A program made the translations under genes and the position numbers. From NCBI GenBank assembly GCA_025353725.1, contig JANXOF010000037.1, positions 310,001 through 374,000 of the forward strand: DNA of 64,000 bases, given 5' to 3'. This DNA is from Polyangiaceae bacterium (GTDB lineage Bacteria; Myxococcota_A; Polyangia; Polyangiales; Polyangiaceae). The stretch's first letter is position 1; each line of letters starts with the position of its first letter. Shown piece by piece: positions 23,401-38,285 of this stretch. The notes beneath the pieces were generated by a model that made no database searches, was not told the origin of the DNA, and saw only the letters and a list, made by a program, of their open reading frames with translations.

Positions 23401-24188
23401 ACCTCCTCGGACTTCCCGAACACGTTCGTGGTGCGCGCGCGGTGGGCGCTATCCGGATCGCGAGTACACTCGACGCCCGCACTCAAGGAACCCTTGCGCA
23501 CGCCGTGCTCGAACGCGTTGACGCAAGCGCCTTTGGTGGACACGACGCAGAGGCCGCCGCGAGCCGAGCCCTCGTCGCAGAGGGGGTGCCGGTGGAGCAC
23601 TCTTCTCATGCCCTCATCGTCGCGCGTGTGGCTCGATTTCTCGGTAGTTCGTACGCGCAGTCCATTGCCCGAGTCGGGGCCGAGGTTCGGCGTGAGGTCG
23701 CGTTCGTCCTTTCGCAAGGCGACGCGGAGGGGCGACAGGTCGTCTTGCGCGGGAGTGTGGACTTGGTTGTCGCGTGGCCCGATGGCGCCGTCGATGTCGT
23801 CGACTATAAAAGCGCGCGCCGCGGAGCAGACGAGGCCTACGCATTTCAGCTCGACGTTTACGCGCGGGCGATGCGCGAGATGTTTCCGAGCTCCGCAAGG
23901 CTCCGTGCTGGTCTGATCTACCTTGGCGGAGAAGGGGCTACGGGCGACCCGATGTGGCGCATCTTGCCCGATGAACGGGTCGTTGCGGCGAGGCTCGCTT
24001 CGCTTGGGGATCGCCTCGTGCGTGCGAGGTGGGAGGACACCTTCCCGCGCGTTCCGCTCGATCGCTGCGCGTCGATTCACTGCGGATTTATCGGCCGCTG
24101 TCATGCGTCCACAGTCCTCGCGGGGATTCGTGAAGAGCCTTCGGAGAATGGGACGGAAGAAAATCCCTCACGTGCGACAACGACGTGA
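20484..24188 (+). CDS. AddA-like UvrD/Rep helicase-nuclease subunit
   Basis: The 1234-residue protein is the ATP-driven helicase-nuclease partner for double-strand-break resection. Walker A is ASAGTGKT at about 19-26; the Walker B-like DALLVDEFQDTSR is near 380; GDRKQSIYGFRGAD near 425 and LTVHASKGLDFPVVFVPE near 785 are UvrD-family motifs. The C-terminal nuclease has VVDYKSARRG near 1109 followed by AYAFQLDVYA. Unusually for the helicase subunit, four cysteines are placed as in Fe-S nucleases: one near 965 (HCARRFEL) and three in DRCASIHCGFIGRC near 1194-1206. Its last 88 bp overlap radC on the opposite strand. Confidence 0.87.
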   Translation: MILDQDRVYAMPRNLVLAASAGTGKTHALVGVVVNLVIRDRPLKLSDRDPATPLDPSRIVATTFSRKAAAEIRTRVTQELERLALAPETSAYAASLRGDGIPANLGVTTLSSEEIRLRAGRALTGLRSARIGTLHSFATGIVRAHAIELGLGPGFELASEADARARADDAIARALEASLVASPFVVRSLAEAAGGIGALVDQLRWILSRLEEDGRAAKDLALPTTDVEQLEASMTTLTEHARSLASTPRFEAAARDLVAAWHRGDEAAVELAAVAFCSLPATGKKSPELDAFAEFRRALVGTTNDEKGRRLARAFGIRHSFVAHASVVRDVLGAAETEIERASRAEASVGFGEVLRAARELLRDRPDVAEEIGASVDALLVDEFQDTSRVQRDLVQLLWARSDERKVGVIPSLAAVRDGGLLVVGDRKQSIYGFRGADVGVFAELAVGLAGAPAREALGIPDGITWEPREPLADFCALRHNRRSVPEVLAFANAFSPRRFCPGATSAELYEIVYVPSTEDLLTPPERESAAAGASEAHTTWLRIRSKGASSSRLEEALVISERIRAICMGTLRIGDELRPVLWRDVAVLATTNGMLDAVAFALAQADIPYVVAGKSFFLTREVRDLAAMLSFVLEPSDRLAMLEVLRGPWVGVHDETLLGLTLAGAGIVPPYAWSAPPQPDLVRVEDRARLNEMASLVTELARCASRIGPGAILREAVRASGFEEVLALLPRGAQRVANVRKLLAIADSHHDARAFRKWLVDASEQELAESEAATFSKDDDAVRLLTVHASKGLDFPVVFVPEIGAALPRSSKGAVRILLGAGNDANVVTVRAADATGIVLESPSFAHAYATARRRDRAERQRLAYVAITRAADAMFLVGGKARVSKSDVGSSTLAVLDDIALDAGALALASLAVEDVDVPAPTLRGGEPTFDELAIAHVPRPSFVPAWRHLSIAPTALADFSHCARRFELVHLLGLPEHVRGARAVGAIRIASTLDARTQGTLAHAVLERVDASAFGGHDAEAAASRALVAEGVPVEHSSHALIVARVARFLGSSYAQSIARVGAEVRREVAFVLSQGDAEGRQVVLRGSVDLVVAWPDGAVDVVDYKSARRGADEAYAFQLDVYARAMREMFPSSARLRAGLIYLGGEGATGDPMWRILPDERVVAARLASLGDRLVRARWEDTFPRVPLDRCASIHCGFIGRCHASTVLAGIREEPSENGTEENPSRATTT

Positions 24189-24796
24189 TCGAGTAGCGGC
24201 ATTCCGACGACTGCTGCAGCCAACGCTACGCGTCGGGTAAATTCGATGTCTTCTACGCTAGGCGTTGAGTCGCCACTCGGATGGTTGTGTACGAGGACGA
24301 ACGCGCTCGCGGAAGCACGTAACGCAAGGCGCAGCGGATCGGCCGGGCGCACGCCCATTCCGTGAAGGCCTCCCTTGGCGACGCACCGTACCGCGCGAAG
24401 GCGACTTCGCCCGTCGAGCGCAAGCAACCAAAGTTCTTCGTGGTCAAGCGCTGACAATCGATTGGACGCCCAGAGGGCAACGTCCGCGCTGTTCGCAATG
24501 GACACCGGGGCTGCGGTGTCGCACGCCGCGCGCCGTCCAAGCTCGAAAGCTGCCGCGACCCGTCGTGCGCAAGCGTTCGGCGTAAGTCGCAAGCGGCGCG
24601 CGCTCGTAAGCCGTTCTTCGAGTTCATCGAGGGTTGCTCGCGCGACGCCGCCGATTCCGCCTAGGCCGCTAAGAAGGGACGCGCCTACCTCCGTCGTGCC
24701 GACCTCCCTTGGTCCGCGGGTTGGAGCCGCGTCGAGCAGTGCGGCGAGAAGCCGTTCGCTCGGCCAATTATCAAGATCGACAGCGGAATTTATCAT
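24101..24796 (-). CDS. radC: RadC-type JAB1/MPN domain protein
   Basis: The 231-residue protein has the RadC layout: an N-terminal helix-hairpin-helix-like region (about 35-100, with GGIGGVARATLDEL), then a JAB1/MPN metalloprotease-like domain. The metal site motif HNHPSGDSTPSVEDIEF (about 173-189) is complete, and an upstream acidic residue lies in the EELWLLALDGRS strand. RadC proteins were first linked to DNA repair, but their biochemical role is unsettled. The gene is convergent with the helicase-nuclease gene and shares 88 bp with it, so its last 29 codons are read antisense to that gene's end. Confidence 0.9.
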   Translation of the reverse strand: MINSAVDLDNWPSERLLAALLDAAPTRGPREVGTTEVGASLLSGLGGIGGVARATLDELEERLTSARRLRLTPNACARRVAAAFELGRRAACDTAAPVSIANSADVALWASNRLSALDHEELWLLALDGRSRLRAVRCVAKGGLHGMGVRPADPLRLALRASASAFVLVHNHPSGDSTPSVEDIEFTRRVALAAAVVGMPLLDHVVVAREGFSSVPFSEGSSRIPARTVDA

Positions 24797-24920: not shown

Positions 24921-25889
24921 CTAGAGGTCCAGGCAGATTCCGAACTTGGGATCGCTGAAAACTGTACTGGTCCGGCAAACCTGCATAGGCCCGCATGCCG
25001 TTCCGTCCGCTTTGCAAAGCGCAAAGCATTTTCTATTACCAGGCTGGCCGAGGCACGTGAGCCGATTCGAACAGCGAACGTCGTCGCAGGCGCTACCCGC
25101 CTGCCTGTCGCCGAGGCCAACGCACCCCGTAGTACCCGTTTCCGTGACGACAGCGCACGTTTCGTTGGCCCCGCAGTCACCTTCTCGAAGTAGCTCGCAA
25201 GGTTTTAACGGCATGCATACGGGCGCTGTGGTGCCACTGCCCGCCAGCGTTTGGATGTCGCAAAACGTCGCACCGCCGGAGCCTGATGTCTGCGCTTTGC
25301 AAGTTCCGTTGCAGCAATAGTGGCGGCATCTCTTCGCCCCGCTCTCTTCCAGAATGCAATCCAGTCCGGCCCCACAGTCGGCACTTACTTCACATGCGTC
25401 GCTCCCGCCGGCCTTCCCGGCTCCGTTTACCTCGCATGTTGCGATTCGTTGGCCGTCCTTCTGGACGATGCGGCAAGCGTTCCGCGCCGTGCCCTCGCCC
25501 GCGTCAGGCTCGCTCGAGGCCGACGCGCATTCGAATGCACCGGTCGTTTGCGTGCGCCGATCGTCATCCGGCATGCAGGTTTCACGCACGCGGCACAACG
25601 GATTGCCTCGATACAGAGACGGAAGAGTGGCTCCCGAGTCGGTAAGCTGGGTGGTTGGCGAGCCTCCGCTTGTGTCGCCTGGAGAGTTGGGCCGCTCGCT
25701 CTTTTCGTCGCCCACCGCGCCATGACTCGAGCAACCGCCACTGGATAGCGGGCCGACAAGACCCAAAAGCGCTGCGAGCCTCAGAACGATGGCTGTGTGG
25801 GTACGGTTTTTAAGCAGCAACAAGGAAGGCCGCCAAGGCGAAGGAGAAAAGGCCGAACGCGGTCGCCGATCCGTGCTCCTGCTTTTCAC
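24921..25889 (-). CDS. Cys-rich lipoprotein with Dickkopf-like repeats
   Basis: The 322-residue protein has a basic N-terminus of about 33 residues before the hydrophobic core (VLRLAALLGLVGPL) and a lipobox-like SGGC near residue 53, so the true start may be somewhat downstream. The mature protein is Ser/Gly-rich and then Cys-rich. Repeated units such as CEVSADCGAGLDCI, CELLREGDCGANETC and CGPMQVCRTS show the disulphide spacing of secreted proteins common in myxobacteria. It is expected at the cell surface, stabilised by disulphides. The function is unknown. It reads in the same direction as the envelope operon upstream but is separated from it by 142 bp. Confidence 0.7.
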   Translation of the reverse strand: MKSRSTDRRPRSAFSPSPWRPSLLLLKNRTHTAIVLRLAALLGLVGPLSSGGCSSHGAVGDEKSERPNSPGDTSGGSPTTQLTDSGATLPSLYRGNPLCRVRETCMPDDDRRTQTTGAFECASASSEPDAGEGTARNACRIVQKDGQRIATCEVNGAGKAGGSDACEVSADCGAGLDCILEESGAKRCRHYCCNGTCKAQTSGSGGATFCDIQTLAGSGTTAPVCMPLKPCELLREGDCGANETCAVVTETGTTGCVGLGDRQAGSACDDVRCSNRLTCLGQPGNRKCFALCKADGTACGPMQVCRTSTVFSDPKFGICLDL

Positions 25890-26031: not shown

Positions 26032-28086
26032 CTACCTCGTTTCGATGTCCCGCGTAGACGCGTTGCCTGCCGCATCAAAGGCGCGCACCACGACAATGTG
26101 TGATCCAGGAGGAACGAGGCTGCTGATTTCGGAATCGACGTGTTCGTCCCGCGTGTCGAACACTCCGTCTGCGGGGCCGAGGGGTCTCCATTCGAGCTTG
26201 CCGTCGATAGCAATCTCTACCTGGGAAATGGGCGACGTCGAATCGACCACGTGAGCCCTGAGACGTCGACCGTTGACCTCTAGCGTTTCGATTCGTGGCG
26301 GTGTGTTGTCAACGACAACAGTCTCCGATTCACGGGCATGCCTCTGTACCTGCTCGGGCGTATTCGACGACTCGTCGCTCGCCTCAACGCGAATACGGTA
26401 CTTCCCCTCAGGTAGGGCGGCGGTGTCCCAGTCCATTTCGGTTTTCGCTTGGACTTCGTCGGGCTTCAGCAAGTCTCGCCAGTGCGTCTGACCCTCACGT
26501 TTGAAAGCGACGCGGTAGCGAAGTGAGTCGCTGTCGGGGTTGTCGACCTTCCAGCTGAGTTTCACAACGCTCTCGTGCTTGCCGACGTCACCACCGCTCG
26601 GCGGTATCGTGCCGGCGGCTAGAGGTTCCTTGCTCGCCGCGCCCTTCGGGATGGCACTAACCTCGGTGACGACGGGCCGAAGGTTTTCCGTAACGAACGG
26701 GAGCGTAACTTCGCTAAGCACGGTATTCGGATCGCGCGTCCATCGAGCTCGCACTTGAACGAAGCGCCCTGTCGCGCTCGGAAGTGCACCGGCTGATGTC
26801 AGTGGGGGACTCCACGCGGTCCACGTCCCATCCGGGACGGCGGTATGTCCGACCCTTGTGGACAGTTCGAGCTGTCCTGTCGCGCGCCAAGTCAGCGTGC
26901 CGAAGCGTGCTCGTAAGCTCGTGTCGAGGACCTTGCTCGTCCAGATGGCATTGGGGCCGCCATGGCCGACGATGCGGTGAACCACGGGGGGATCGCTCGT
27001 GGCAACGAAGCCTCCCCCCGCAGCGACGACGAGCGCACCAACTTGTCGTTCATCTGTGTCTGCGAGGAGCGTCACCACGTGAGCGTCGTCAACCGTATAA
27101 ACACGTCCATCCGCGCCGGTACCCACATAGGCTCGCCCGAGTTCGTCGACGGCGAGGGACATGTAGTGGGTATCGTCGTGCTTCATCATCCGTTCGGGGC
27201 GGCCCTCAGCGTCGAACCGATAAACGACACCCTTGCCGGCCTTTGCATGCGTGTTTGAGGCTGGGCCTGCTGGCGTTCGGCTAGTGGCAGAGGTCCGCTT
27301 TGGAGGCTCGGGAGGCTCGGCGTATTCGTTCCCGATGGCCCAAATCATGCCCTTCGATACCGCGATGGATTTGACCTCTTCGCCGGGAAGGGTCGCGAGT
27401 ACGGTGGCCCGACCGGGGCCCGAAATCCGATAGAGATTTCCCGTCCCGCTTGAGCCCGCAAGGAGGTCTCCGTTTTCGGCAATGGCGAGCGACACGAGAT
27501 GGCTTTCGGACGTGCGGTAGTAGACCGAATTCGCGCCAGTAGGCTCGATTCGAAACACTTTTCCTCCGGGGCCGGTGGCCGCAAAGAGGCCAGCGTTTTG
27601 CCTATTAAGCACAAGTGCCCATACGTGACTCGCTTCTGGCAACGTCGTGAAGAGCTCGGCCTTTCCCGCAACGAGTTTGAAGACCTTGCCGTCGGGAATT
27701 GTGGCCGCGAAAACGGCGCCGTTTTTCGCTTGCACCATCGAGGTCACGGCGAGGGCGCCAGTCTCGGCAAAAAGCGAGAGCGTTTCTCCGACGAGTTTGT
27801 AGATTCGCCCTTGAGGGCTGGTTCCGACGAGCATCGAGCCATCGGTGAGTGCGAGTGCCGAGAAGGATGCCCCCGCGTCGGGAATAGGGACGTTTGAGAG
27901 CGTGAGGCCCGCGCGAACCGAACCATCGGAGCTCACGGCAACTCCGCTTAGGTCGCCGCCCGAAAGCTTTTCTAGCGTATCGAGTACAAAAGTGCGTGCG
28001 CCGACCGCGGTGGCATCGCTCACCACGGCCAGAGAGAGAGAGACGACGGCAGCCACGATGGCCGCGCGCGCGCGCGAGAAACTCAT
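26032..28086 (-). CDS. Exported beta-propeller protein with C-terminal Ig/FnIII-like domains
   Basis: The frame is open to 28320, but the ATG at 28086 starts a proper signal peptide (SFSRARAAIVAAVVSLSLA), giving 684 residues. About residues 45-390 form repeated blades with patterns such as GSMLVGTSPQGRIYKL, GAVFAATIPDGKVFKL, AGLFAATGPGGKVFRI and GDLLAGSSGTGNLYRI, six or more units. A laminin/lectin-like strand region follows (LELSTRVGHTAVPDGTWTAW), then Ig/FnIII-like segments (WKVDNPDSDSLRYRVAF and VVVDNTPPRIETLEVNG). It is probably a secreted adhesin or scaffold. It is the last gene of the minus-strand operon, 94 bp after the beta-barrel gene. Confidence 0.72.
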   Translation of the reverse strand: MSFSRARAAIVAAVVSLSLAVVSDATAVGARTFVLDTLEKLSGGDLSGVAVSSDGSVRAGLTLSNVPIPDAGASFSALALTDGSMLVGTSPQGRIYKLVGETLSLFAETGALAVTSMVQAKNGAVFAATIPDGKVFKLVAGKAELFTTLPEASHVWALVLNRQNAGLFAATGPGGKVFRIEPTGANSVYYRTSESHLVSLAIAENGDLLAGSSGTGNLYRISGPGRATVLATLPGEEVKSIAVSKGMIWAIGNEYAEPPEPPKRTSATSRTPAGPASNTHAKAGKGVVYRFDAEGRPERMMKHDDTHYMSLAVDELGRAYVGTGADGRVYTVDDAHVVTLLADTDERQVGALVVAAGGGFVATSDPPVVHRIVGHGGPNAIWTSKVLDTSLRARFGTLTWRATGQLELSTRVGHTAVPDGTWTAWSPPLTSAGALPSATGRFVQVRARWTRDPNTVLSEVTLPFVTENLRPVVTEVSAIPKGAASKEPLAAGTIPPSGGDVGKHESVVKLSWKVDNPDSDSLRYRVAFKREGQTHWRDLLKPDEVQAKTEMDWDTAALPEGKYRIRVEASDESSNTPEQVQRHARESETVVVDNTPPRIETLEVNGRRLRAHVVDSTSPISQVEIAIDGKLEWRPLGPADGVFDTRDEHVDSEISSLVPPGSHIVVVRAFDAAGNASTRDIETR

Positions 28087-28180
28087 AGTCCGGAGCTTAC
28101 CTCTCAACTCGCGGGCGCCATAGAAAACGAAGTGCGGCTGGCCCTCACCAAGTTTCGGCCGCGCTCGGCTGCGCTGCTGG

Positions 28181-28960
28181 CTAAAAGGAAAGTGCGAGCC
28201 CCGTGCGCAAAAAAGCGCCCCCGACCGAAAGCCTTCGAAGTTGCGTCGGTTCGTCCGACCCCAGCACGTCGCTCGCGTCGCGGTTTGGAGCCGGACTAGG
28301 GTCTGCACTCGAGGTGGCACCGTAACCTAACTCCGTAGTGAGCCAGATCCGCCCTCGGCGTGGATCGTAGTCCTTACCTCCACCCAACAAACGGACACCG
28401 GCGCCTACGCTGATATCGACCGCAAGTCCCCAAGGCGCGCGCGTTAGCGGTTGCGTCGACGACGCGTCGTCGACGCGAACCTTGTAGGCCACGGCACCTG
28501 GAGCAACTTTTCCGGACACATGGAGCCAAGGTGCGAAGTACCAGCGAGCCTCGATCGGGATGCTCAATCGATGGACTGCAAGACGTGTCGATTGCCCACG
28601 GGCGTTCGACGAACGTTCTCCGAAGTCCCATGCGATCCCGGACGCGACGGCGAGTCTCCCAGGGGTGTAAAACGCATAGGTCGCGTCGAGCGACAGCTGA
28701 GCGAGCCAATCGTTATCGGCGAATGCGTCGAAGCCGGCGCTATCGACACGGTTCAAACGAACACCTGCGCCGACGCGAAGCGAATCAAATCGAGGCGCAA
28801 GCGTCAACGCAGGCATTCGCTCCGAATCGATGACATCTGACTCTCGTTGCTCTACGATTTGCGGCTCTGTTGCGGGTCTAGCCGGTTCGGATGTGGCGTC
28901 TGCAAGCGATGATGACGCTAAAACTATGGGCGCCACGAACGAGGACAAGAAAGCTGACAT
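28181..28960 (-). CDS. Outer-membrane beta-barrel-like protein
   Basis: The ATG at 28960 is preferred because it touches the upstream gene's stop (TGACATG) and has GAGG upstream; an ATG at 28987 is in frame. The 259-residue product has a signal peptide ending near SLADA. The rest alternates polar and hydrophobic residues in strands (TLAPRFDSLRVGAGVRL, LSLDATYAFYTPGRLAVASG, RIWLTTELGYGATSS) and ends LRTGLALSF. A C-terminal Phe is the usual Bam recognition signal of outer-membrane barrels. Eight to ten strands are plausible. It sits between two lipoprotein genes and one propeller gene in the same operon. Confidence 0.65.
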   Translation of the reverse strand: MSAFLSSFVAPIVLASSSLADATSEPARPATEPQIVEQRESDVIDSERMPALTLAPRFDSLRVGAGVRLNRVDSAGFDAFADNDWLAQLSLDATYAFYTPGRLAVASGIAWDFGERSSNARGQSTRLAVHRLSIPIEARWYFAPWLHVSGKVAPGAVAYKVRVDDASSTQPLTRAPWGLAVDISVGAGVRLLGGGKDYDPRRGRIWLTTELGYGATSSADPSPAPNRDASDVLGSDEPTQLRRLSVGGAFLRTGLALSF

Positions 28961-28961
28961 G

Positions 28962-30575
28962 TCAGAGGTCCTCGAGGAGAAGGCCATAGTAGGAGCGCGA
29001 CGCAGCCGTATCGGGTGCCCCTGCGTCTAGCACCGTGGCACCGACGGCGCCGCGAGCATCAAGGGCAATGAGCGAGCGCCCACCTCCGATACGCGCGACG
29101 TCGAACACCGCATCGATAGGTCGATCGAGCGGCACCGGGAGCGGATGCAGGTCCGAGAGACTCACTTGAGCGAGGCTCGTTCGCCCGCGTTCGAAAGCCC
29201 AAAGGCGTTCACCGTCGCGTGAGACGACAAGCGAGGCTGCTGCGAGCGTAGTGAGCGGCGATGCGGTTCTAGTGACGAGGTTTAATCCGTAAAATGAGTT
29301 TGCCGTCGTGCCTTGAAGGATCTTGAGTTCGGGGCGTGGAGGAGGAACGTCGAGCACGCTGGCGACCGGCGTAGCAAGCGAGATGACCTCTACGGAGCGG
29401 TACGGTTGTCCAGCTGCGCGACCAAGCGACCAAAACGCAACTCCTCGCGCGCCGCCAGAACCGTAGAGGAGTGCCGTGTCACCTCCGCTGCCGCCTACGA
29501 CATTGGTGATGAGCGCGAACTTCGCGTAAGCTTCCGGTAAGTCGACCGTCGTCGTCACGCTCGTGTCGAGGTCGACGAGCACGGCTCTCTTCATGCTCGG
29601 CACGACGGCTGCTAGGCGAAGGCCGGCGTTGGTGCGCACGAAGACAATGTCGCCAGGAATGCCGCCGACGTCGGCGAGATTGACGTCGGCTCGAAAGTCA
29701 TTGGGGACTTGGCTCGGATCTTCTGTCGTGGCGCCAAGCGCGCTTGCTACGAGCGTAAGCGAAACCACGTTCGGGCTATTTTCAAGGCGAATTCCAAGGC
29801 GTGCGTCGTCGTTTCGCGTCGGGTCACCGTCGTCGACAACGAAGCCGCCCGGCCTGTTTGGGATCGCGCTCGTCCCGCCTGCGAGGCGCACGGTAATTTC
29901 CGGACGCCGCGGCGTTGCGCGAACGTTATCGAGGTCGAGAAGCGCTACGTCTTGGTCGGTCTCTACGACCATCAAGCGTCGCGGGCCACCAGGCAAGAGT
30001 AGTTGCGGAGTGAACGAAACGCGTTGCGGCAATCCCCCGAAGCTTCGCAAAGTCCGGGGAGTAACCGCCGTTTCGCCGGGAGCTGTGAGGTCGACCAAGA
30101 CGATCTCGTTCGGGTTTTCGACGAACGAAGCCTGGACGGGGGCGCTGGTCACGACGGGTGCTGCAAAGATAGCCACCCAGCGCCCGAGAGGGTCTATCGA
30201 GAGCCCTGAATGCGGGGACTCAAGGGGAAAAATGCGCGCGGCCCCGTTTTCGATGACCGTTAGACTTGGCTTTTCGTCGCTCTCTCGCTTACGCGTCGTG
30301 TCGCCCCTGGAAAGGACGAAGAGGCGCTGCCCGTCCGCCGACGCTTCGGCCTTGAGGACGCCCTTTCCAAGCGGAAGTGCGCTTCGGCCGAGGCCCTGGT
30401 CCGTGAGAGCGGAGAGCACGACCGCGCGATGTGCGTTGTCATCCACTACGACCACAGATTCGCTGAGGCCGTAGGCGCGGACCTGGCCGATGGAGGCGTC
30501 GTAGATGCTCGGGCGCGCGCCGCATGCGACGAGCGATGAAAAAACGCACACCGCAACGAAGGCTCCGCGAGTCAT
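28962..30575 (-). CDS. Lipoprotein with beta-propeller-like repeats (copy 2)
   Basis: The 537-residue protein has a signal peptide with lipobox LVAC (Cys near 18) and then all-beta repeats. Examples are VVVVDDNAHRAVVLSAL, EASADGQRLFVLSRGD, SIDPLGRWVAIFAAP and SRDGERLWAFERGRTSL, similar to YVTN-type propeller blades. Its ATG overlaps the stop of the preceding lipoprotein gene (ATGA), and its stop abuts the start of the beta-barrel gene. It resembles the preceding gene's product in length and layout, so the two are probably paralogues. The role is unknown; a surface scaffold or sensor is plausible. Confidence 0.68.
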   Translation of the reverse strand: MTRGAFVAVCVFSSLVACGARPSIYDASIGQVRAYGLSESVVVVDDNAHRAVVLSALTDQGLGRSALPLGKGVLKAEASADGQRLFVLSRGDTTRKRESDEKPSLTVIENGAARIFPLESPHSGLSIDPLGRWVAIFAAPVVTSAPVQASFVENPNEIVLVDLTAPGETAVTPRTLRSFGGLPQRVSFTPQLLLPGGPRRLMVVETDQDVALLDLDNVRATPRRPEITVRLAGGTSAIPNRPGGFVVDDGDPTRNDDARLGIRLENSPNVVSLTLVASALGATTEDPSQVPNDFRADVNLADVGGIPGDIVFVRTNAGLRLAAVVPSMKRAVLVDLDTSVTTTVDLPEAYAKFALITNVVGGSGGDTALLYGSGGARGVAFWSLGRAAGQPYRSVEVISLATPVASVLDVPPPRPELKILQGTTANSFYGLNLVTRTASPLTTLAAASLVVSRDGERLWAFERGRTSLAQVSLSDLHPLPVPLDRPIDAVFDVARIGGGRSLIALDARGAVGATVLDAGAPDTAASRSYYGLLLEDL

Positions 30576-32167
30576 GGCTTGCTCCCATCCACGACGCGAG
30601 ACGAAAGCTCGAATCCCGTCAACGTGCGTGCTAACCCGGTTTCGAGATCAATGAACGTCAGTCGCCCCTCGGGGTGCTGCTGTGCGATAAACGCGCGCTT
30701 AGCGCCGTCGACGATGCCGACCGCCAGGGGCGGACTTGCCAGTGGGTAGCGTTCCACCATCAGTTGGGGCATGCGCGCGAGGTAAGCGCCGAACACGTTC
30801 GTCTTGTCATCGCGCTCGGCGACGATCGCACGGTCATTCGTGACGGCTACCGCAAACGGTGGCGCGAATGTCGCGACGATTTTTGGTGGAAGCGCCTTCG
30901 CGACCGGAAGAATGCTGAAGGCGCCGGGGCTCCCCGGTTCCCCAGCGGTCCCGGCCGTTTTCTCGTGCAAAATTACCGCGTGGCGTGCGTCGGGCGCGCT
31001 AAAGACGGCAAGTACAGGTGAGTACAGTCGGACGGCGCGAACGGTTGGCGGAGCGGGCAAAAGATCGAGGATGCTGACCCGCTGCACGTCCGACGCATTG
31101 GTATAAAGAAGTCCTCGTTGGCCTCCGGGCGCGAGAGAGACTGACCCTATCGTTTCTCCGGAAACCGTGACCGTCGCGAAGGTCGTCGGCGCGATGAGAA
31201 TGGCGGGGATGGGGAGCACGGCGACTTGGGACGTCGCGCGCACCACGGCGACGGCTTGGTCCCCTGCCTCGTTCAAGTCGAGATCGGTTACCGGACCGGG
31301 TAGGACGATGCTGGAGCGCAGGCCGGTGTCGAGTGCGACCGCGGTAATTGTCGACGAGCCGTCACGCCTTATCAACGCGACGTTGCCATTCGGTGTCACT
31401 GAGACGTCGCGCGACCCTGGGTCGTCGTTCGGTGTGTCCGATACCGCAACGTTCTTTATGACTTGAGGATCGCTCGTCAGGTCGAGAATCGCAATTCCAT
31501 CTTGGCTTATGGCAAAAGCGCGCGCCTGACCTGCGGCAAACCCAACTGCGACAGGGCGGTAGCCCACCGCGAGAACGGTGGACGTCCCGGTAACAAGGTT
31601 CATCACCGTGAGGTCTTGAAAGCCGTCAGGCTTCGGGGCTTTTGGTACTTTGCGCGAGTCTCCCCAGGCTATAGCGAAGTGACCGTCTGCGGAGAAGACC
31701 AAGCTATTTGCGAGAGGAGCAACCTTGAACGTTGTCGTGGTGATTTCAGCTTTCGAAACACGGAGCAGTGTGGCGTCGTTTGAAAGAACGTTTAAGACAA
31801 GCGTCGTGTCGACTCCCTGTCCCGGAACGCGCCCAAGGAACGTAGGTCCATTTCCTGCCTCTACGGTTTTAACGCGGAGTGTTGTAGCATCAACGAAAGC
31901 GACCTGGCCGCTTTTTGGATTTGTGATCCAAACGAAGTTTCCTGTAGCGACGGGCGCCCCATAGTCTGATTCTACTTCTCGTTCGGGGGTCGCCTCGGCC
32001 GGGGCGGCACCGCCAGCCGTCTCAGGTCCGGATTCATCGTTCGCGCTCGGAGCAGCCCTTCCCGCGGCGAGCGTGCCTTCCGCTGAAATGTTGCTGCACC
32101 CACACGCGAATGTGAAAAACGCAGGAGCTACGCTCTCCAGGAGAGACCTTGGCTTCATAATTGACAT
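30572..32167 (-). CDS. Lipoprotein with beta-propeller-like repeats (copy 1), first gene of the operon
   Basis: The 531-residue protein begins with a short signal peptide and a lipobox in TFACGC (lipidated Cys near 22-24). A low-complexity Ala/Gly/Glu linker follows to about residue 65. The remainder is beta-strand repeats resembling propeller blades: GNFVWITNPKSGQVAFVD, VFSADGHFAIAWGDSRK, LTVMNLVTGTSTVLAVG and VTPNGNVALIRRDGSS. It overlaps the next lipoprotein gene by 4 bp, and the two look like tandem paralogues that have diverged. Upstream is a 265-bp region shared with the divergent dCMP deaminase gene. Confidence 0.68.
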   Translation of the reverse strand: MSIMKPRSLLESVAPAFFTFACGCSNISAEGTLAAGRAAPSANDESGPETAGGAAPAEATPEREVESDYGAPVATGNFVWITNPKSGQVAFVDATTLRVKTVEAGNGPTFLGRVPGQGVDTTLVLNVLSNDATLLRVSKAEITTTTFKVAPLANSLVFSADGHFAIAWGDSRKVPKAPKPDGFQDLTVMNLVTGTSTVLAVGYRPVAVGFAAGQARAFAISQDGIAILDLTSDPQVIKNVAVSDTPNDDPGSRDVSVTPNGNVALIRRDGSSTITAVALDTGLRSSIVLPGPVTDLDLNEAGDQAVAVVRATSQVAVLPIPAILIAPTTFATVTVSGETIGSVSLAPGGQRGLLYTNASDVQRVSILDLLPAPPTVRAVRLYSPVLAVFSAPDARHAVILHEKTAGTAGEPGSPGAFSILPVAKALPPKIVATFAPPFAVAVTNDRAIVAERDDKTNVFGAYLARMPQLMVERYPLASPPLAVGIVDGAKRAFIAQQHPEGRLTFIDLETGLARTLTGFELSSRVVDGSKP

Positions 32168-32432
32168 GCAGATGCAGTGCCCGTGCCAGATCTTATTTGA
32201 TTCGAAACGCCGTGGTTGGAAGAAACGAGTGGGTTACAGCTATGATCTAGCTGTCGCCTCCGAGCTCGGTCTCCGCGAAGGCGCGCCAATAGGCCGACGT
32301 TTAGGGCGCCATGGCTCCTCGTTGAGCCGCGAGCGCTTGGTTCGCGTTCTGCGTTCGCTCTGCTAAGCGAGAATCTCCGAAGTCGCTCTATCTCCGATTG
32401 CGTCGGAGGCGGTGGCGTTTTAAACGCTTGCC
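32168..32432. other. Divergent intergenic region between the envelope operon and dCMP deaminase
   Basis: These 265 bp separate two divergent genes and should hold both promoters. A TATGAT at 32241-32246 has a TTGGAA 19 bp before it (32216-32221), a weak sigma-70-like match on the plus strand. A short open frame on the same strand runs through the region to 32366, but it has no ribosome-binding site I trust. No clear operator palindrome is visible. Confidence 0.3.
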
Positions 32433-32888
32433 ATGATGAGAGCCCGCGCTTCCTGGGACGAGTACTTCATGAATATCGCAGGTGAGGTCTCTACGCGATC
32501 CACGTGCGACCGTAAGCACGTAGGCGCCGTTGTTGTTCGCGATAGATCGATCCTCGCAACGGGCTACAACGGGTCGGTAAAGGGGCTTGGCCACTGCGAC
32601 GATGACGGTCACCTCATGGAGGATGGTCACTGCGTACGGACCGTTCACGCCGAAGCGAACGCTATCGTGCAGGCGGCTCGCAACGGCGTCCGCATCGAGG
32701 GCGCAGGAATCTACGTTACCGCGTCCCCGTGCTGGGGGTGTTTTCGCCTTATCGCGAATGGGGGAATCGTACGTATCGTTTTCGGCGAATTTTATCGCGA
32801 CGAAAAGATTTTTGATGTTTCCCAGACCCTCGGAATCGAGTTGGTAGATTTTTCGCCCAAGGTCGGCTCAATCGAAACGTCGGTCTGA
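32433..32888 (+). CDS. dCMP deaminase family protein (ComEB-like)
   Basis: The 151-residue zinc enzyme is predicted to convert dCMP to dUMP for thymidylate synthesis. The catalytic zinc motifs are HAEANAI (about residues 72-78) and PCWGC (about 99-103). The family's substrate and second-zinc region is present as CDRKHVGAVVV, GYNGSVKG and HCDDDGHLMEDGHCVRTV. Length fits ComEB/dCMP deaminases. Two adjacent ATGs (32433 and 32436) are possible starts. It is transcribed alone, divergent from the envelope operon. Confidence 0.93.
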   Translation: MMRARASWDEYFMNIAGEVSTRSTCDRKHVGAVVVRDRSILATGYNGSVKGLGHCDDDGHLMEDGHCVRTVHAEANAIVQAARNGVRIEGAGIYVTASPCWGCFRLIANGGIVRIVFGEFYRDEKIFDVSQTLGIELVDFSPKVGSIETSV

Positions 32889-33029
32889 CATCGGGCTACA
32901 CGGAACAGTGGCCGTAACATCAGCCAGCAGCGGACTTTGACGAAAACCGAACAGGAAGCAGCAGGGAAGCGTCATGGAAACGCCAATGCGCATTCCATAA
33001 CGTCCCTGCCATCGCTCGACGAAACGTGA

Positions 33030-33680
33030 TTAGAAAGAAAGTTGAGTAAACGTGAAAAGCAAGTATTTCGGAGATGACGTGTCAGCGTCGATGACGATGG
33101 CCCCATCATGACCCCCGCTGTGCCCTCGGTGAATTAGGTGGCCACCAGAATGACTAAAGGGCGACATAAAAACCGACACTCGTTGTCCTACGTTCAGTTC
33201 GCGCTCGAGAGCCGTCTCCGAGGTTGGCCTGAACAGGTTTGAGTGGACGCTCAGGTCACGGACGTAGTCGAGCGACGAGGCGCCGTGCCAGCCTTCACTC
33301 CACGCGCCTGCCTTGAGCGGTGCGCTCAGGGAAAGGGATTGCCCATCGAGATTGACGGCCGCGTCGTAAACCGCGCCATTGCTCTGAATTTGAACGTGCA
33401 GGTGCGATGAGTCACTGTTACACACATGGGTTTTCGCAGGCACAAGAGCGAATACAGTTCCGTCAAGTCTGCCGAAGCCGCCCGAGATCGCGTTTCCGAG
33501 CGCGCTCGTACATTGTCCGTTCACGGATAGGGAGGCCGTACTTTCGACCGCTGTCGAACCGACGGTCGCCGCTTCTTCGCTGAAACAGCCAGCGAGAACC
33601 ACGAGAGCGATGCAGGACAAAGAGTAAGGGAGCTTGGTGATCTGACCGACAGCTGCACGACGCAATTTGAATGGGCTCAT
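33030..33680 (-). CDS. Hypothetical lipoprotein with His-rich C-terminus
   Basis: The frame opens at a TTG at 33701; the ATG at 33680 (216 residues) is more likely. A signal peptide ends in lipobox LAGC (Cys near 32). The mature protein has two cysteines (QCTSALG and HVCNSDSS) that could pair. A Gly/His-rich stretch near the C-terminus (SHSGGHLIHRGHSGGHDG) might bind metal, and the end is beta-rich (KYLLFTFTQLSF). I do not recognise a family. It stands alone, convergent with the dCMP deaminase gene. Confidence 0.6.
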   Translation of the reverse strand: MSPFKLRRAAVGQITKLPYSLSCIALVVLAGCFSEEAATVGSTAVESTASLSVNGQCTSALGNAISGGFGRLDGTVFALVPAKTHVCNSDSSHLHVQIQSNGAVYDAAVNLDGQSLSLSAPLKAGAWSEGWHGASSLDYVRDLSVHSNLFRPTSETALERELNVGQRVSVFMSPFSHSGGHLIHRGHSGGHDGAIVIDADTSSPKYLLFTFTQLSF

Positions 33681-34019
33681 AAGGCGAAGATTCCTAGTCA
33701 ACCGATGTCTAAGAAACGAAGTTCAAGCCCCCCCGCTGAACACGGGCACCGTACTCGCGGCTTGGATTCTGGCAAGCATTGAAACGTTACGATTGCGCAA
33801 CATCCCTTCGTCGAGCAAAGGCGTAAGAAGCGATTTCTAAGGCTCGACCCACGTTGCTCGAGCGAAGCACGAGTGCCGCGAGGTGCGCGAGGTCGGCTGC
33901 GTGCTTACATGTCTTACATATTTTGAGACCATCCGCGAACGGTGACGTCATCTGTTGCCGGACGACAACCGGCGGTCTCAGAAACCCGACGGATCGAACG
34001 CATACTGAGGAGCGCTTTC
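33681..34019. other. Intergenic region, no gene seen
   Basis: These 339 bp lie between two divergently transcribed orphan lipoprotein-type genes. I see only a short inverted repeat (GCCGG and CCGGC around a 7-base loop, near 33956-33972) and a short direct repeat (CTTACAT, twice near 33904-33919). No convincing RNA gene, promoter pair or coding frame is visible. Confidence 0.4.
34007..34012 (+). promoter_or_regulatory. Shine-Dalgarno GAGGAG fixing the start at 34020
   Basis: GAGGAG ends 7 bases before ATG 34020. It selects this start over an in-frame ATG 78 bp upstream and places a signal-peptide-like sequence at the N-terminus. Confidence 0.6.
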
Positions 34020-35060
34020 ATGAAGCACACGCCCTGGCAAACGGTGAACATTACGGTCGTAGCGTGCGCGATCTCGCTCTCGTGCCCGGCTTGCGCCAAT
34101 CGCGCCAGCGAAGATATTCAGAGTGGTGGCGAACAGCAATCGGCGAGTCGCCCTCGAGCTGAAAATGAAAAGACAGTATCGGCCACCACCGCCGAAGGTC
34201 CCCGAGCGACGCTAGCAGACACAACCTCACCCATTGATCTTCGCTTGTACTTCCCTAAAGAAGCGTTGACGACCGCGCACCGGCGCGCGGACGCAAGTAG
34301 CTACTCTACGTACTCCTACTTTCCTGCGAACGACGCCTTTCAATCCATGTATGGAAGCCTTTTTACGTTAGGAAATCCTGGAGATCTCTACGTTTGGTCC
34401 AAGGGGTACAATGCAGGTTGTGTGACAACCTATGCGCAGCTTTTTCTCGGTGAAGACAAGAGTTTTACCGAAGTTGGTGACTATCTTGCCAACGACCAAT
34501 GTAAACCATCAGTCGCACTTGGTTACGGAAATTATCTTTCTGGAAACGACGGGCTAGCATGGTCAGCTCCGGGCGGGCTGCCCCGACCTGGGGGCACGGG
34601 GACCACGGCCGAAAAGTACGGTTTGTCTGTACGACGACAGAATCTTGCCGGCGACGCGTATCTCTCCGCTGGTGCACTCGCGTGGAACCAGACTCGAATC
34701 GTCGAGGTTTTGCCTTCGTATCAGCCTCCGTATGGTCGATCGCAGGGAGTCTGGGGAGCGGGACTCGCAAAAACCTATTCGAATGTTGTGCGACTCGTTC
34801 TTTACCACGGAACCTACGTTCCGAAACAGAAGGCGATTGCGTCGTGTAAGGTCGACCCGTCATGGGCGTATTCAAGGTTTTACTACTCCCTATCAGGTTA
34901 CCATACGTACGCTTCCGAGTACTACGTAGCCGAGGGAAAGTGGATAATCCAAGAGTCTACGCTGTACATTGAAGACGGTGGGTATTGGGGTTTGTCTGAT
35001 TGCATAGGGCTCTCGCTCGACAAGCGCGCGGACTGGGTAAGCTATATCGACGAAATTTAA
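34020..35060 (+). CDS. Orphan exported protein, Tyr/Gly-rich
   Basis: The 346-residue protein starts at the ATG with a good ribosome-binding site. A hydrophobic segment (VNITVVACAISLSCPACA) with a Cys near 26 suggests a lipoprotein signal. A Ser/Glu/Thr-rich linker follows, then from about residue 70 a Tyr-rich, probably beta-structured domain (TYSYFPANDAFQSMYGSLF, LFLGEDKSFTEVGDYLAN, WAYSRFYYSLSGYHTYA). A few cysteines (NAGC, DQC, SCK, DC) could form disulphides. No family is recognised. By eye the gene is less GC-rich than its surroundings, which would fit recent acquisition. Confidence 0.65.
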   Translation: MKHTPWQTVNITVVACAISLSCPACANRASEDIQSGGEQQSASRPRAENEKTVSATTAEGPRATLADTTSPIDLRLYFPKEALTTAHRRADASSYSTYSYFPANDAFQSMYGSLFTLGNPGDLYVWSKGYNAGCVTTYAQLFLGEDKSFTEVGDYLANDQCKPSVALGYGNYLSGNDGLAWSAPGGLPRPGGTGTTAEKYGLSVRRQNLAGDAYLSAGALAWNQTRIVEVLPSYQPPYGRSQGVWGAGLAKTYSNVVRLVLYHGTYVPKQKAIASCKVDPSWAYSRFYYSLSGYHTYASEYYVAEGKWIIQESTLYIEDGGYWGLSDCIGLSLDKRADWVSYIDEI

Positions 35061-35432
35061 TTTCCTCCCTGGCCACGGATGTTTCGCGTCAATGCTCGTA
35101 CGAGCGCAGAGCCTCCTCGCTACATCGGAAGCGTATGCAATCGATTCGTAACGAAAGGCTGGGCTCGAAGGCATCGCGGAGTACGGGCTGAGGTAAGACT
35201 CAGCGATGCTGACATCCCGACCGCGTTACCGCGTCGAGTTTGCGCGGTAGCGCGCCGCGTTCTCGCGGACTGTTCGGCCGCGTCCCCGCAAGGACTGGAC
35301 AATTGAATCTTCGACCCCATCAACCGAGCGTGGGCGAAACGTAAAGCCGGTCGAGGCGTTCTCAGTAGAGGGAATGCCTGTGCTGGTCGGCTCGCTTCTG
35401 CCTGCAAAACCAACGAGTAGGGAACCTTTCAA
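35061..35432. other. Intergenic region, no gene seen
   Basis: This 372-bp stretch holds only short overlapping frames on both strands with basic, low-complexity translations and no ribosome-binding sites. I see no terminator hairpin or RNA gene. It should contain the promoter of the fasciclin gene. Confidence 0.4.
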
Positions 35433-35846
35433 ATGCATGATATTATCGATACCGCTGTTGCTGCAGGTTCGTTCAAGACGCTCGCTGCTGCAGCGACTGC
35501 CGCTGGCTTAGTTCCCACGCTTAAAGGCAACGGACCATTCACCGTTTTCGCGCCCACGGATGAGGCTTTCGCGAAGCTTCCACCGGGCACGGTCGACGCT
35601 CTCTTGAAGGACATTCCAAAGTTGACCGCTATTCTGACGTACCACGTCGTGTCTGGCAAAGTGATGGCAGCAGACGTGGTTAGCATGGACGGAAAGTCCG
35701 CCAAGACGGTAAACGGTGCCGACGTGAAGATCAGTACCAAAGGCGGCGTCAAGCTCAATGGTACATCAAACGTCGTGAAAACCGACATCGAGTGCACGAA
35801 CGGCGTCATTCACGTTTTGGACGCAGTCATTCTTCCGCCTGGCTGA
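35433..35846 (+). CDS. Fasciclin (FAS1) domain protein
   Basis: The 137-residue protein is a single FAS1 domain. The conserved H1 box reads [15 protein letters not shown] (about residues 32-46) and the YH motif is [16 protein letters not shown] (about 68-83); the end ([16 protein letters not shown]) completes the fold. FAS1 domains usually mediate adhesion outside the cell, yet no signal peptide is present here, so it is either cytoplasmic or exported by another route. AGGGAA lies upstream of the ATG. It is flanked by orphans. Confidence 0.9.
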
Positions 35847-35936
35847 CTAGACTACTGAATCGATAGACAGCGTAACGGTTCTTGCGTTGAAGATTAATTC
35901 CTCACAGAGAGGGCGACGGCGTAAGAACTGTTTTTA

Positions 35937-36338
35937 ATGAAATTCGATAACAAACAAGCTCTTCCGACCCGATCGGCAAAAAATGTTCTCGGCGGCAAGC
36001 TGGAGGAATGCGGTCGCGACCCATTGACTGGATTTTTCAGAGATGGTTGCTGTCACACCGTCACTGAAGACTGGGGGTCGCACACCCTGTGTGCGCGGAT
36101 GACCACTGAATTTCTCGCATTTTCAAAGCTTCGCGGTAATGACCTAACAACGGCGAGGCCGGAGGATGCCTTCCATGGCCTCCGCGAGGGTGATATGTGG
36201 TGCCTTTGCGTTAGCCGCTGGAAGGAGGCTTACGAGTTTGGAGTTGCACCTTGCGTTCGCCTCGCGGCAACCCACGAGCGTGCGCTCGAAACTGTTACTA
36301 TCGAAATGCTCATGCGTCGCGCGACAGACTTCAATTGA
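35937..36338 (+). CDS. DUF2237 family protein
   Basis: The 133-residue protein matches the DUF2237 pattern closely from my knowledge of the family: NVLGGKLEECGRDPLTGFF, RDGCCHTVTEDWGSHTLCA, MTTEFLAFSKLRGNDLTT, GDMWCLCVSRWKEAYEFG and APCVRLAATHERALE. The many conserved Cys (about 25, 38, 39, 52, 89, 91) suggest metal or redox chemistry, but the family's function is not established. No signal peptide is present, so it is likely cytoplasmic. No clear Shine-Dalgarno precedes the ATG, which follows a short T-run. Its stop is 54 bp from the stop of the convergent S55 gene. Confidence 0.88.
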   Translation: MKFDNKQALPTRSAKNVLGGKLEECGRDPLTGFFRDGCCHTVTEDWGSHTLCARMTTEFLAFSKLRGNDLTTARPEDAFHGLREGDMWCLCVSRWKEAYEFGVAPCVRLAATHERALETVTIEMLMRRATDFN

Positions 36339-36392
36339 GCGAAACTCCAAGTGCTTTTCGCCGTTCCAGCAGGCGCCATCGTTGGTCTTATG

Positions 36393-38285
36393 TCAACGCA
36401 GCACGCTTCTGACTCTTACGTGCACCCGGTCGGAACCCTCGACGTACCGCTCAAGCGCTGCAACGACGCGCGAGTAGGCGAGAAAGGCATCGGGAGCGAC
36501 GTCTGAACTCCAAGGGCGAAGTGCGTCGAGTGCGAATGACGGCAATCGGTCGGCCACGTGGCCGAGGAAAGCGACTCCTTGCGCACGGATCCGATACTGG
36601 GCGACGAGACTTTTCGGAAGAACGGTTTGCTTGATCGAATTGGTGAGAAGATCGTCCAGACTTTGTGGCGCTGCTAGTTCTGAAAGAACCATATACCCAG
36701 GAGAGATCTCCACTTCCACATCTTTCCCTGCGAGGTCTGCCGGGAAACGAACCTCGAGAACTTGAGTGACTTCAGGTCCTGCGAAGGGAACGAGGTGCAC
36801 TCGAAGGCGGGCGGGGTCGCCTACGTCGACGATCGGATCGAGGACATCAACGCCTCGGAGCTTCCACAGCTCGCGTTTGTAATCGACGGTGATGGTTCCC
36901 TCAATTTTCTCGATATGCGTAGGTTCCCAGGGGTTGTTTAAGACCTCGCCGACCGCGCGACCAATCTTCGATTGAGCGAAGTCGCCCGCATCCGGCATTC
37001 CCCCGACGGCCACGCCGAAGTCCTCGAGAGCAATGGTGCCGTGTCCTCTCACTGAAAGCTTGGTTCTCAAGTGCCACGTTACGTCTCGGCGTTCGTTGAC
37101 GGATGCGTCGACCACGGACCCAATGACCGATGCCACGAGCGAGGCGCTCATGAAGCGGTCGTCTGCGATTTTCACGTTCCAAGCTGTCTTCAAAAGGCCC
37201 GGTGCTCCGCGAATCTCCAAAGACATCGGGAACATCGGTGCAATTTTCGACGTGTCAATGACGACCGCGCTTTGCCGATCTTGCACTAGCGTGCCGAGCG
37301 GTCGAGCGGCCTCGCCAATCTTCGATGAGTGCTGATCACTCGCGAAAATCCAATGCACTTTCCCGATCGCGGCGGGAAGCGCGCTGACGCCTGCCTCCAT
37401 CATTGGATGCCCGAATCCGCAGAGCTTGCTTCCCTCGACGTGGGTCACCGTCCCCAGACCCATGAACGACACGTCACCGCTCGCCATCTGCACACCCAGC
37501 GCGCCGCCGTCGACGTAGTGCGTCGGAGCGTTCGGGTCTTGCGTGCCATCGCCACCTCCGCCCGCCTGCACAGGCTCGAGCCCGAGTGGTCCAAACAGCT
37601 TTTGGACGAGTGCCATGGAACGATCGCTCATTCCGGAAAGGAGAAGCGGCGTCGCGGCCGGTCGCAGGGGTTTCGTCGGGTCGGTGCCCATCGCGAGGCG
37701 CGACGCGACCTGCGCCGCATGGGTCGTGAGGTCATAGGCGCCCGGCAAACCGTCGAAGGCGGTCGCTCCGCTTCCCGGACCGCGTGGCACGTACGCCGCG
37801 TGCTCTGCCCTCAGGCTTGCACCAGGGAGCGGTGTGGCGCCTTCGAGTGGCCAAAAGCCCGACGGAATCGGCCGTCGCATCTCGGAGAGCATAGGAGCTA
37901 TGGGGGTCACACCGGCCACCGGCTCCACCTGAAACGCGGCCCACGAGTACGCGTAAGCCCCGGCTAGTCGACCGTCGAGGTAGATCGGGCTCCCGCTCAT
38001 ACCGCGCACGTTCTTTGTCACGTTCAACCTTGGATGCGGCGTTTTGACGAGGATGAGATCCTGCGACGGCCGGAAGTTCCGAAGAACGCCCACGACCTCG
38101 ACGTCGAATCGCTCGGGGAGCGTTCCTTTGAACACGGTGAGGCCGTAGCCTTTCATCCCGTCTTTGATCTCCTCCACCGAAATCGTGGACGGCTTCGCGT
38201 CGCCGCGGGCGAGCGGTATCGTTACACCTAAGCCTGCAAGGAGTCCGATGGCGAGCGCGCCTACGGGAAGAAATTCGTTGCGCAC
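36393..38285 (-). CDS. SpoIVB-type (S55) peptidase domain protein, exported
   Basis: The 630-residue protein begins at GTG 38285 with a hydrophobic signal segment (VGALAIGLLAGLGVTIPLA). The beginning of the mature part (EEIKDGMKGYGLTVFKGT, VEVVGVLRNF) and the serine motif VRGMSGSPIYLDGRLAGAY (about 93-111) match S55 peptidases, the Ser of GMSGSP being the nucleophile. The histidine motif GFGHPMM lies much later (near 290), the reverse of the order in B. subtilis SpoIVB, as in other non-sporulating bacteria. The C-terminal half is beta-rich and may be a regulatory or propeptide region. Periplasmic proteolytic signalling is likely; the target is unknown. Confidence 0.78.
   Translation of the reverse strand: MRNEFLPVGALAIGLLAGLGVTIPLARGDAKPSTISVEEIKDGMKGYGLTVFKGTLPERFDVEVVGVLRNFRPSQDLILVKTPHPRLNVTKNVRGMSGSPIYLDGRLAGAYAYSWAAFQVEPVAGVTPIAPMLSEMRRPIPSGFWPLEGATPLPGASLRAEHAAYVPRGPGSGATAFDGLPGAYDLTTHAAQVASRLAMGTDPTKPLRPAATPLLLSGMSDRSMALVQKLFGPLGLEPVQAGGGGDGTQDPNAPTHYVDGGALGVQMASGDVSFMGLGTVTHVEGSKLCGFGHPMMEAGVSALPAAIGKVHWIFASDQHSSKIGEAARPLGTLVQDRQSAVVIDTSKIAPMFPMSLEIRGAPGLLKTAWNVKIADDRFMSASLVASVIGSVVDASVNERRDVTWHLRTKLSVRGHGTIALEDFGVAVGGMPDAGDFAQSKIGRAVGEVLNNPWEPTHIEKIEGTITVDYKRELWKLRGVDVLDPIVDVGDPARLRVHLVPFAGPEVTQVLEVRFPADLAGKDVEVEISPGYMVLSELAAPQSLDDLLTNSIKQTVLPKSLVAQYRIRAQGVAFLGHVADRLPSFALDALRPWSSDVAPDAFLAYSRVVAALERYVEGSDRVHVRVRSVLR

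Follow-up and report, generated by a model that had tools for sequence, protein, structure and literature searches.

Four genes on the minus strand, in the order A-B-C-D, occupy positions 26032-32167 of the 64,000-nucleotide stretch of Polyangiaceae DNA analysed here (the window). Their tight packing raises the question of whether the four products work together. The preliminary description had read them as one envelope operon encoding a four-part surface assembly. Comparison with 38 relatives and with a phylum sample of 188 genomes indicates that the array is very probably a chance juxtaposition of two units, an A-B-C operon that was relocated in a Labilithrix-like lineage and a pair formed by D and an S55 (SpoIVB-like) peptidase.

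Gene layout and predicted proteins

An ORF check of the window recovered the four same-strand genes with the spacings described before. Genes A (30572..32167; 531 aa) and B (28962..30575; 537 aa) overlap by 4 bp (ATGA), B and C (28181..28960; 259 aa) lie one base apart (TGACATG, that is TGA-C-ATG), and a 94-bp gap separates C from D (26032..28086; 684 aa). The start of D was placed at the ATG at 28086, from which the relatives align; a longer in-frame ORF (to 28320) would overlap C. No above-cut-off family was found for A, B, C or D in Pfam and NCBIfam. The S55 peptidase gene (36393..38285, minus strand) lies ∼8.3 kb from D here. The lineage-specific segment between them (28087..36392) carries A-B-C and genes for a deaminase (32433-32888, plus), two unassigned ORFs (33030-33701, minus; 33942-35060, plus), a fasciclin protein (35433-35846, plus) and a DUF2237 protein (35937-36338, plus). 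Downstream of D are the gene for F2, a Cys-rich exported protein (24921..25889, minus), and a RadC-family gene (24101..24796, minus; PF04002, E 1.9e-29).

A and B each have a signal peptide ending in a lipobox, the Cys of which is invariant (Cys22 in 23 relatives of A, Cys18 in 20 relatives of B). The residue at +2 is Gly in both window proteins, which is compatible with outer membrane sorting under the E. coli rule, and we predict that these two lipoproteins are anchored in the outer membrane. The two are barely related by BLAST. Profile-profile comparison of the families (hhalign) gave a probability of 98.8% (E 7e-17, 421 columns), so the earlier claim of paralogous lipoproteins holds, with B as a distant full-length paralogue of A. 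The structural model of A (m5e73ea8ca970; pLDDT 84.7, pTM 0.80) starts with ∼55 disordered residues past the lipobox region, followed by one large propeller region of about 40 strands over residues 73-517. Its best whole-length structural matches were the nine-bladed eIF2A/eIF3b propellers (358-373 residues, Z 16-18.6, rmsd 4-5), from which nine or ten blades are predicted for A. In profile searches against the PDB, A matched the propeller of 5c2v at E 5e-8 and that of 1l0q at E 2e-7. The latter, an archaeal surface-layer YVTN propeller, is also similar in structure (Z 15.6); A differs from it in being a lipoprotein, in the larger size of its propeller and in lacking a PKD domain. B gave no match in the PDB sequence and profile search and, from its full-length profile homology to A, is a putative propeller. 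Neither A nor B matched D by profile, so the three propellers do not belong to one family.

In several genomes A is duplicated, either in tandem or beyond C as A-B-C-A' (L040, 8181-13775; L046, L047, L048). Some tblastn-style A matches (L047, L048, L049, L050) contain one TGA inside the aligned range, which may be explained by read-through of a stop in the match or by real frameshifts.

Conceivably, A and B have an enzymatic (lactonase-like or YVTN-type) function and do not serve as binding or scaffold propellers. In profile comparison, A weakly resembles the lactonase-like structures 3scy and 3fgb as well as the beta subunit of hydrazine synthase, and isolated Lactonase and Cytochrom_D1 matches were seen in its family. 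However, each of these Pfam entries matched one of 23 members, below the cut-offs, and the signal common to A and the enzyme matches is that of the generic propeller fold. We consider an enzymatic role doubtful. As scaffold or binding proteins, A and B would be tethered to the outer membrane by lipid (A also by its flexible linker) and would offer their large propellers as surfaces.

The C protein has a signal-peptide-like N-terminus and ends in LALSF. Its C-terminal residue is Phe in 13 of the 14 relatives and Tyr in the other; a weak, sub-threshold match to OMP_b-brl was found in 2/14, and the PDB sequence search gave no match. The terminal Phe of the preliminary description thus stands, while its outer-membrane barrel is better called probable: C is a probable small outer-membrane beta-barrel.

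The model of D (pLDDT 84.2) shows a propeller followed by C-terminal beta-sandwich (Ig/Y_Y_Y-like) domains, and the propeller matches seven-bladed proteins at Z 32-34. Structure prediction therefore bore out the propeller folds proposed for A and D, together with the reading of D as an exported propeller with Ig-like domains. Virginiamycin B lyase (streptogramin lyase; 2z2o and 2qc5) has the same seven-bladed propeller (VIA Z 32-33, rmsd 2.3-2.4, 287-288 residues), but the identity is 10% and D has extra beta-sandwich domains. The top Foldseek matches of D were the periplasmic sensor domains of HTCS proteins (BT4663 and BT4673 of Bacteroides; Reg_prop and Y_Y_Y), in which a propeller likewise precedes an Ig-like domain, and Reg_prop matches were found in 8 of 20 D relatives. 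Unlike these sensors, D has one propeller and is a free exported protein with neither kinase nor transmembrane part, and the global TM-scores are low (0.15-0.35). Membership of D in the HTCS sensor family was rejected, since Y_Y_Y is sub-threshold in the window D (14.1 vs. 26.6 bits) and there is no kinase; the two resemble each other only.

Linkage of D to an S55 peptidase

Of the 38 relatives, 37 carry D, almost always as a single copy, and in every one of them it lies apart from A-B-C. D and B are both present in 26 genomes, somewhat above chance expectation (odds ratio 3.2, p 0.0008, relatedness ignored). The two genes share a contig only in G000 and G130, at a distance of 1.48 Mb in the latter; most comparison genomes are draft MAGs, in which location on another contig shows non-adjacency and not a large distance. 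Apart from the window, D and B were never near each other among these 26 genomes.

The conserved neighbor of D is the S55 peptidase. In the phylum sample of 188 genomes, 56 have a strong D match, and these 56 are also the ones with a strong S55 match; ten further D matches, weak domain-level ones of 43 bits or less, were set aside. The two genes are adjacent, on one strand and within 400 bp in 48 of the 56 (median gap 47 bp). The rest comprise three drafts in which the genes are on separate contigs, three genomes where the profile hits were partial (476-1268 bp), G008 with 2504 bp and the window with 8312 bp between the two. Among 21 D loci (20 relatives and the window), an S55 family member was found in 18, F2, adjoining D downstream, in 15, and RadC near D in 10. 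Seven sister species have 20-223 bp between S55 and D, vs. ∼8.3 kb in the window. The S55 peptidase is the conserved partner of D and the pairing is obligate; the two genes are normally adjacent and probably co-transcribed. G008 carries a second, independent interruption of the pair, with a plus-strand ORF of 737 aa in between (L064, 12012-14380).

The window peptidase matches PF05580 above the cut-off and contains the motif GMSGSP; all 17 relatives match PF05580 as well, and the motif is invariant among them. The match to SpoIVB (9lnf, E 7e-8) is centered on the catalytic-Ser segment. Only this Ser half aligns with SpoIVB, and the His-like motif GxGTVT...GFGHP follows the Ser instead of preceding it. 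GMSGSP is located at residues 95-100 and the invariant GxGTVT...GFGHP near 277-295 (alignment A5 of the relatives); the order in 9lnf is the reverse, with GIGTMT...GALGH at 118-141 and the Ser segment at 222-318. The His half gave no Pfam match, either alone or in rotated order. With the rotated sequence, Pfam and PDB matches were not significantly extended into the His half, where one motif match, with the order reversed, stayed below significance. No PDZ match was found in the window peptidase. From the order of its motifs, the window S55 domain is possibly circularly permuted.

In Bacillus, SpoIVB is described as a protease with a PDZ domain by which pro-sigmaK processing is set off (PMC6581720, PMC12502668). 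By analogy, the S55-D pair may be guessed to act in signalling. We propose that D is the exported (periplasmic or secreted) partner of the peptidase, and it may act as its sensor, adaptor or substrate.

The A-B-C operon and its probable former site

A and B were each found in 22 of the 38 relatives and C in 15. In the loci read out the three genes stand together in order, at times with a second A. A and B are spaced by -4 bp at 10 of 18 loci, and 17 of the 18 fall between -4 and +20; the corresponding counts for B/C are 7 and 11 of 14. In Polyangiales, C follows B directly in every case. Across the phylum sample, 95 genomes carry an A-like gene and 60 a B-like one. Where B is strong (54 genomes), A is present in 52, and in 51 of these both lie on one contig and strand. 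Distant members keep the order A(-A')-B-C, as in G044 and G176, both single-contig genomes, and in contigs named as Kofleriaceae or Nannocystineae, with C recognizable there only weakly or by position. In much of Myxococcota, A-B-C forms a conserved module whose genes are often translationally coupled. On the co-occurrence check in Myxococcota proposed earlier, the families rarely occur together where D is concerned, and A, B and C do occur together. The envelope operon of the preliminary description is therefore retained for A-B-C and given up for D, which is near-universal in the order without A, B or C.

We propose that A, B and C assemble into a single envelope complex, with the propellers held at the outer membrane around C. 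In BamB-type systems, a propeller lipoprotein occurs together with an outer-membrane barrel. A/B and C would resemble this arrangement in pairing propeller lipoprotein(s) with a probable barrel, but BamA is much larger than C, which also lacks a POTRA region. No sequence relation of A-B-C to any named system was found.

In five sister species A-B-C lies between the gene for a PrsW-family protease (PF13367) and an M66-like peptidase (PF10462)-F9-acyl-CoA dehydrogenase series. More widely in the genus, the genes for the PrsW-family intramembrane protease and the M66-like lipoprotein metallopeptidase flank A-B-C (L037-L041 and other congeners). The orthologous slot in the window's genome, on contig C2, reads PrsW (77% identical)-F9-acyl-CoA dehydrogenase (90%), and A, B, C and M66 are all absent from it. 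Since the PrsW slot of this genome is without A-B-C and A-B-C stands upstream of D, the module appears to have moved as a unit. The closest relatives of A, B and C are those of congener G009 (70, 69, and 53%, respectively), and descent within the genus followed by relocation is therefore the simplest reading. A-B-C would have left its ancestral PrsW/M66/acyl-CoA dehydrogenase slot and entered, together with other genes, the gap between S55 and D, the segment presumably moving in one event. The insert ends showed no mobile element or flanking direct repeat, and direct or inverted repeats there were short, chance-like pairs. The A-B-C transcript may now extend into D, which would be incidental.

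Weighing the alternatives

The tight spacing, common strand and predicted export of all four genes in this genome, with D possibly co-transcribed with A-B-C, are what one functional surface assembly would lead one to expect. It would not lead one to expect D in 37 of 38 close relatives against 22 for A and B, nor D adjacent to A or B nowhere else and bound to the S55 peptidase as its fixed neighbor; the single four-part assembly is highly improbable and we have abandoned it. An artificial A-B-C/D junction is also very unlikely. The source genome is a draft of 98 contigs with 3.43% estimated contamination and the A-B-C-D arrangement was seen in it alone, but both flanks of the inserted segment keep the sister-species order and rejoin one conserved locus, with SLT-PDDEXK-UvrD-RadC-F2-D on one side and S55-CstA on the other, as in G009, which argues against a chimeric assembly. 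In addition, the ancestral slot in the same genome is closed without the module.

The insertion could also have come about by loss of A-B-C from the old site and its regain through horizontal transfer. The GC content over about 31-36.5 kb of the segment is 0.54-0.59, compared with 0.60-0.67 in the flanks, and the accompanying genes (deaminase, fasciclin, DUF2237 and the two unassigned ORFs) were not found in sister D loci. The stretch at 32168-36392, which holds the deaminase, fasciclin and DUF2237 genes beside the operon, has a GC content of 0.54-0.58. However, the GC content over most of A-B-C itself is 0.61-0.64, and all three genes are nearest to the congener G009, as vertical descent predicts. 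We regard transfer as unlikely and favor relocation within the lineage.

A search of titles and abstracts recovered no recognizable paper on the A-B-C or S55-D families. Both envelope units are, as far as the searches show, uncharacterized but ordinary-looking. A bolder and quite tentative interpretation is that two undescribed envelope systems adjoin here: a Myxococcota-wide outer-membrane complex of A, B and C that moves as a cassette, and an obligate pair in which D regulates an S55 peptidase of reversed, possibly circularly permuted catalytic order, which would be a periplasmic signalling protease of a new type.

The tempting four-gene system is thus replaced by two testable units. In the sample, S55 and D co-occur in 56 of 56 genomes, which strongly predicts that they function jointly and identifies the peptidase as the partner of D. 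Old and widespread within Myxococcota, the A-B-C operon is without an assigned function. Its move to the D locus is a clean case in which contiguity in one genome misleads operon-based guesses at function.
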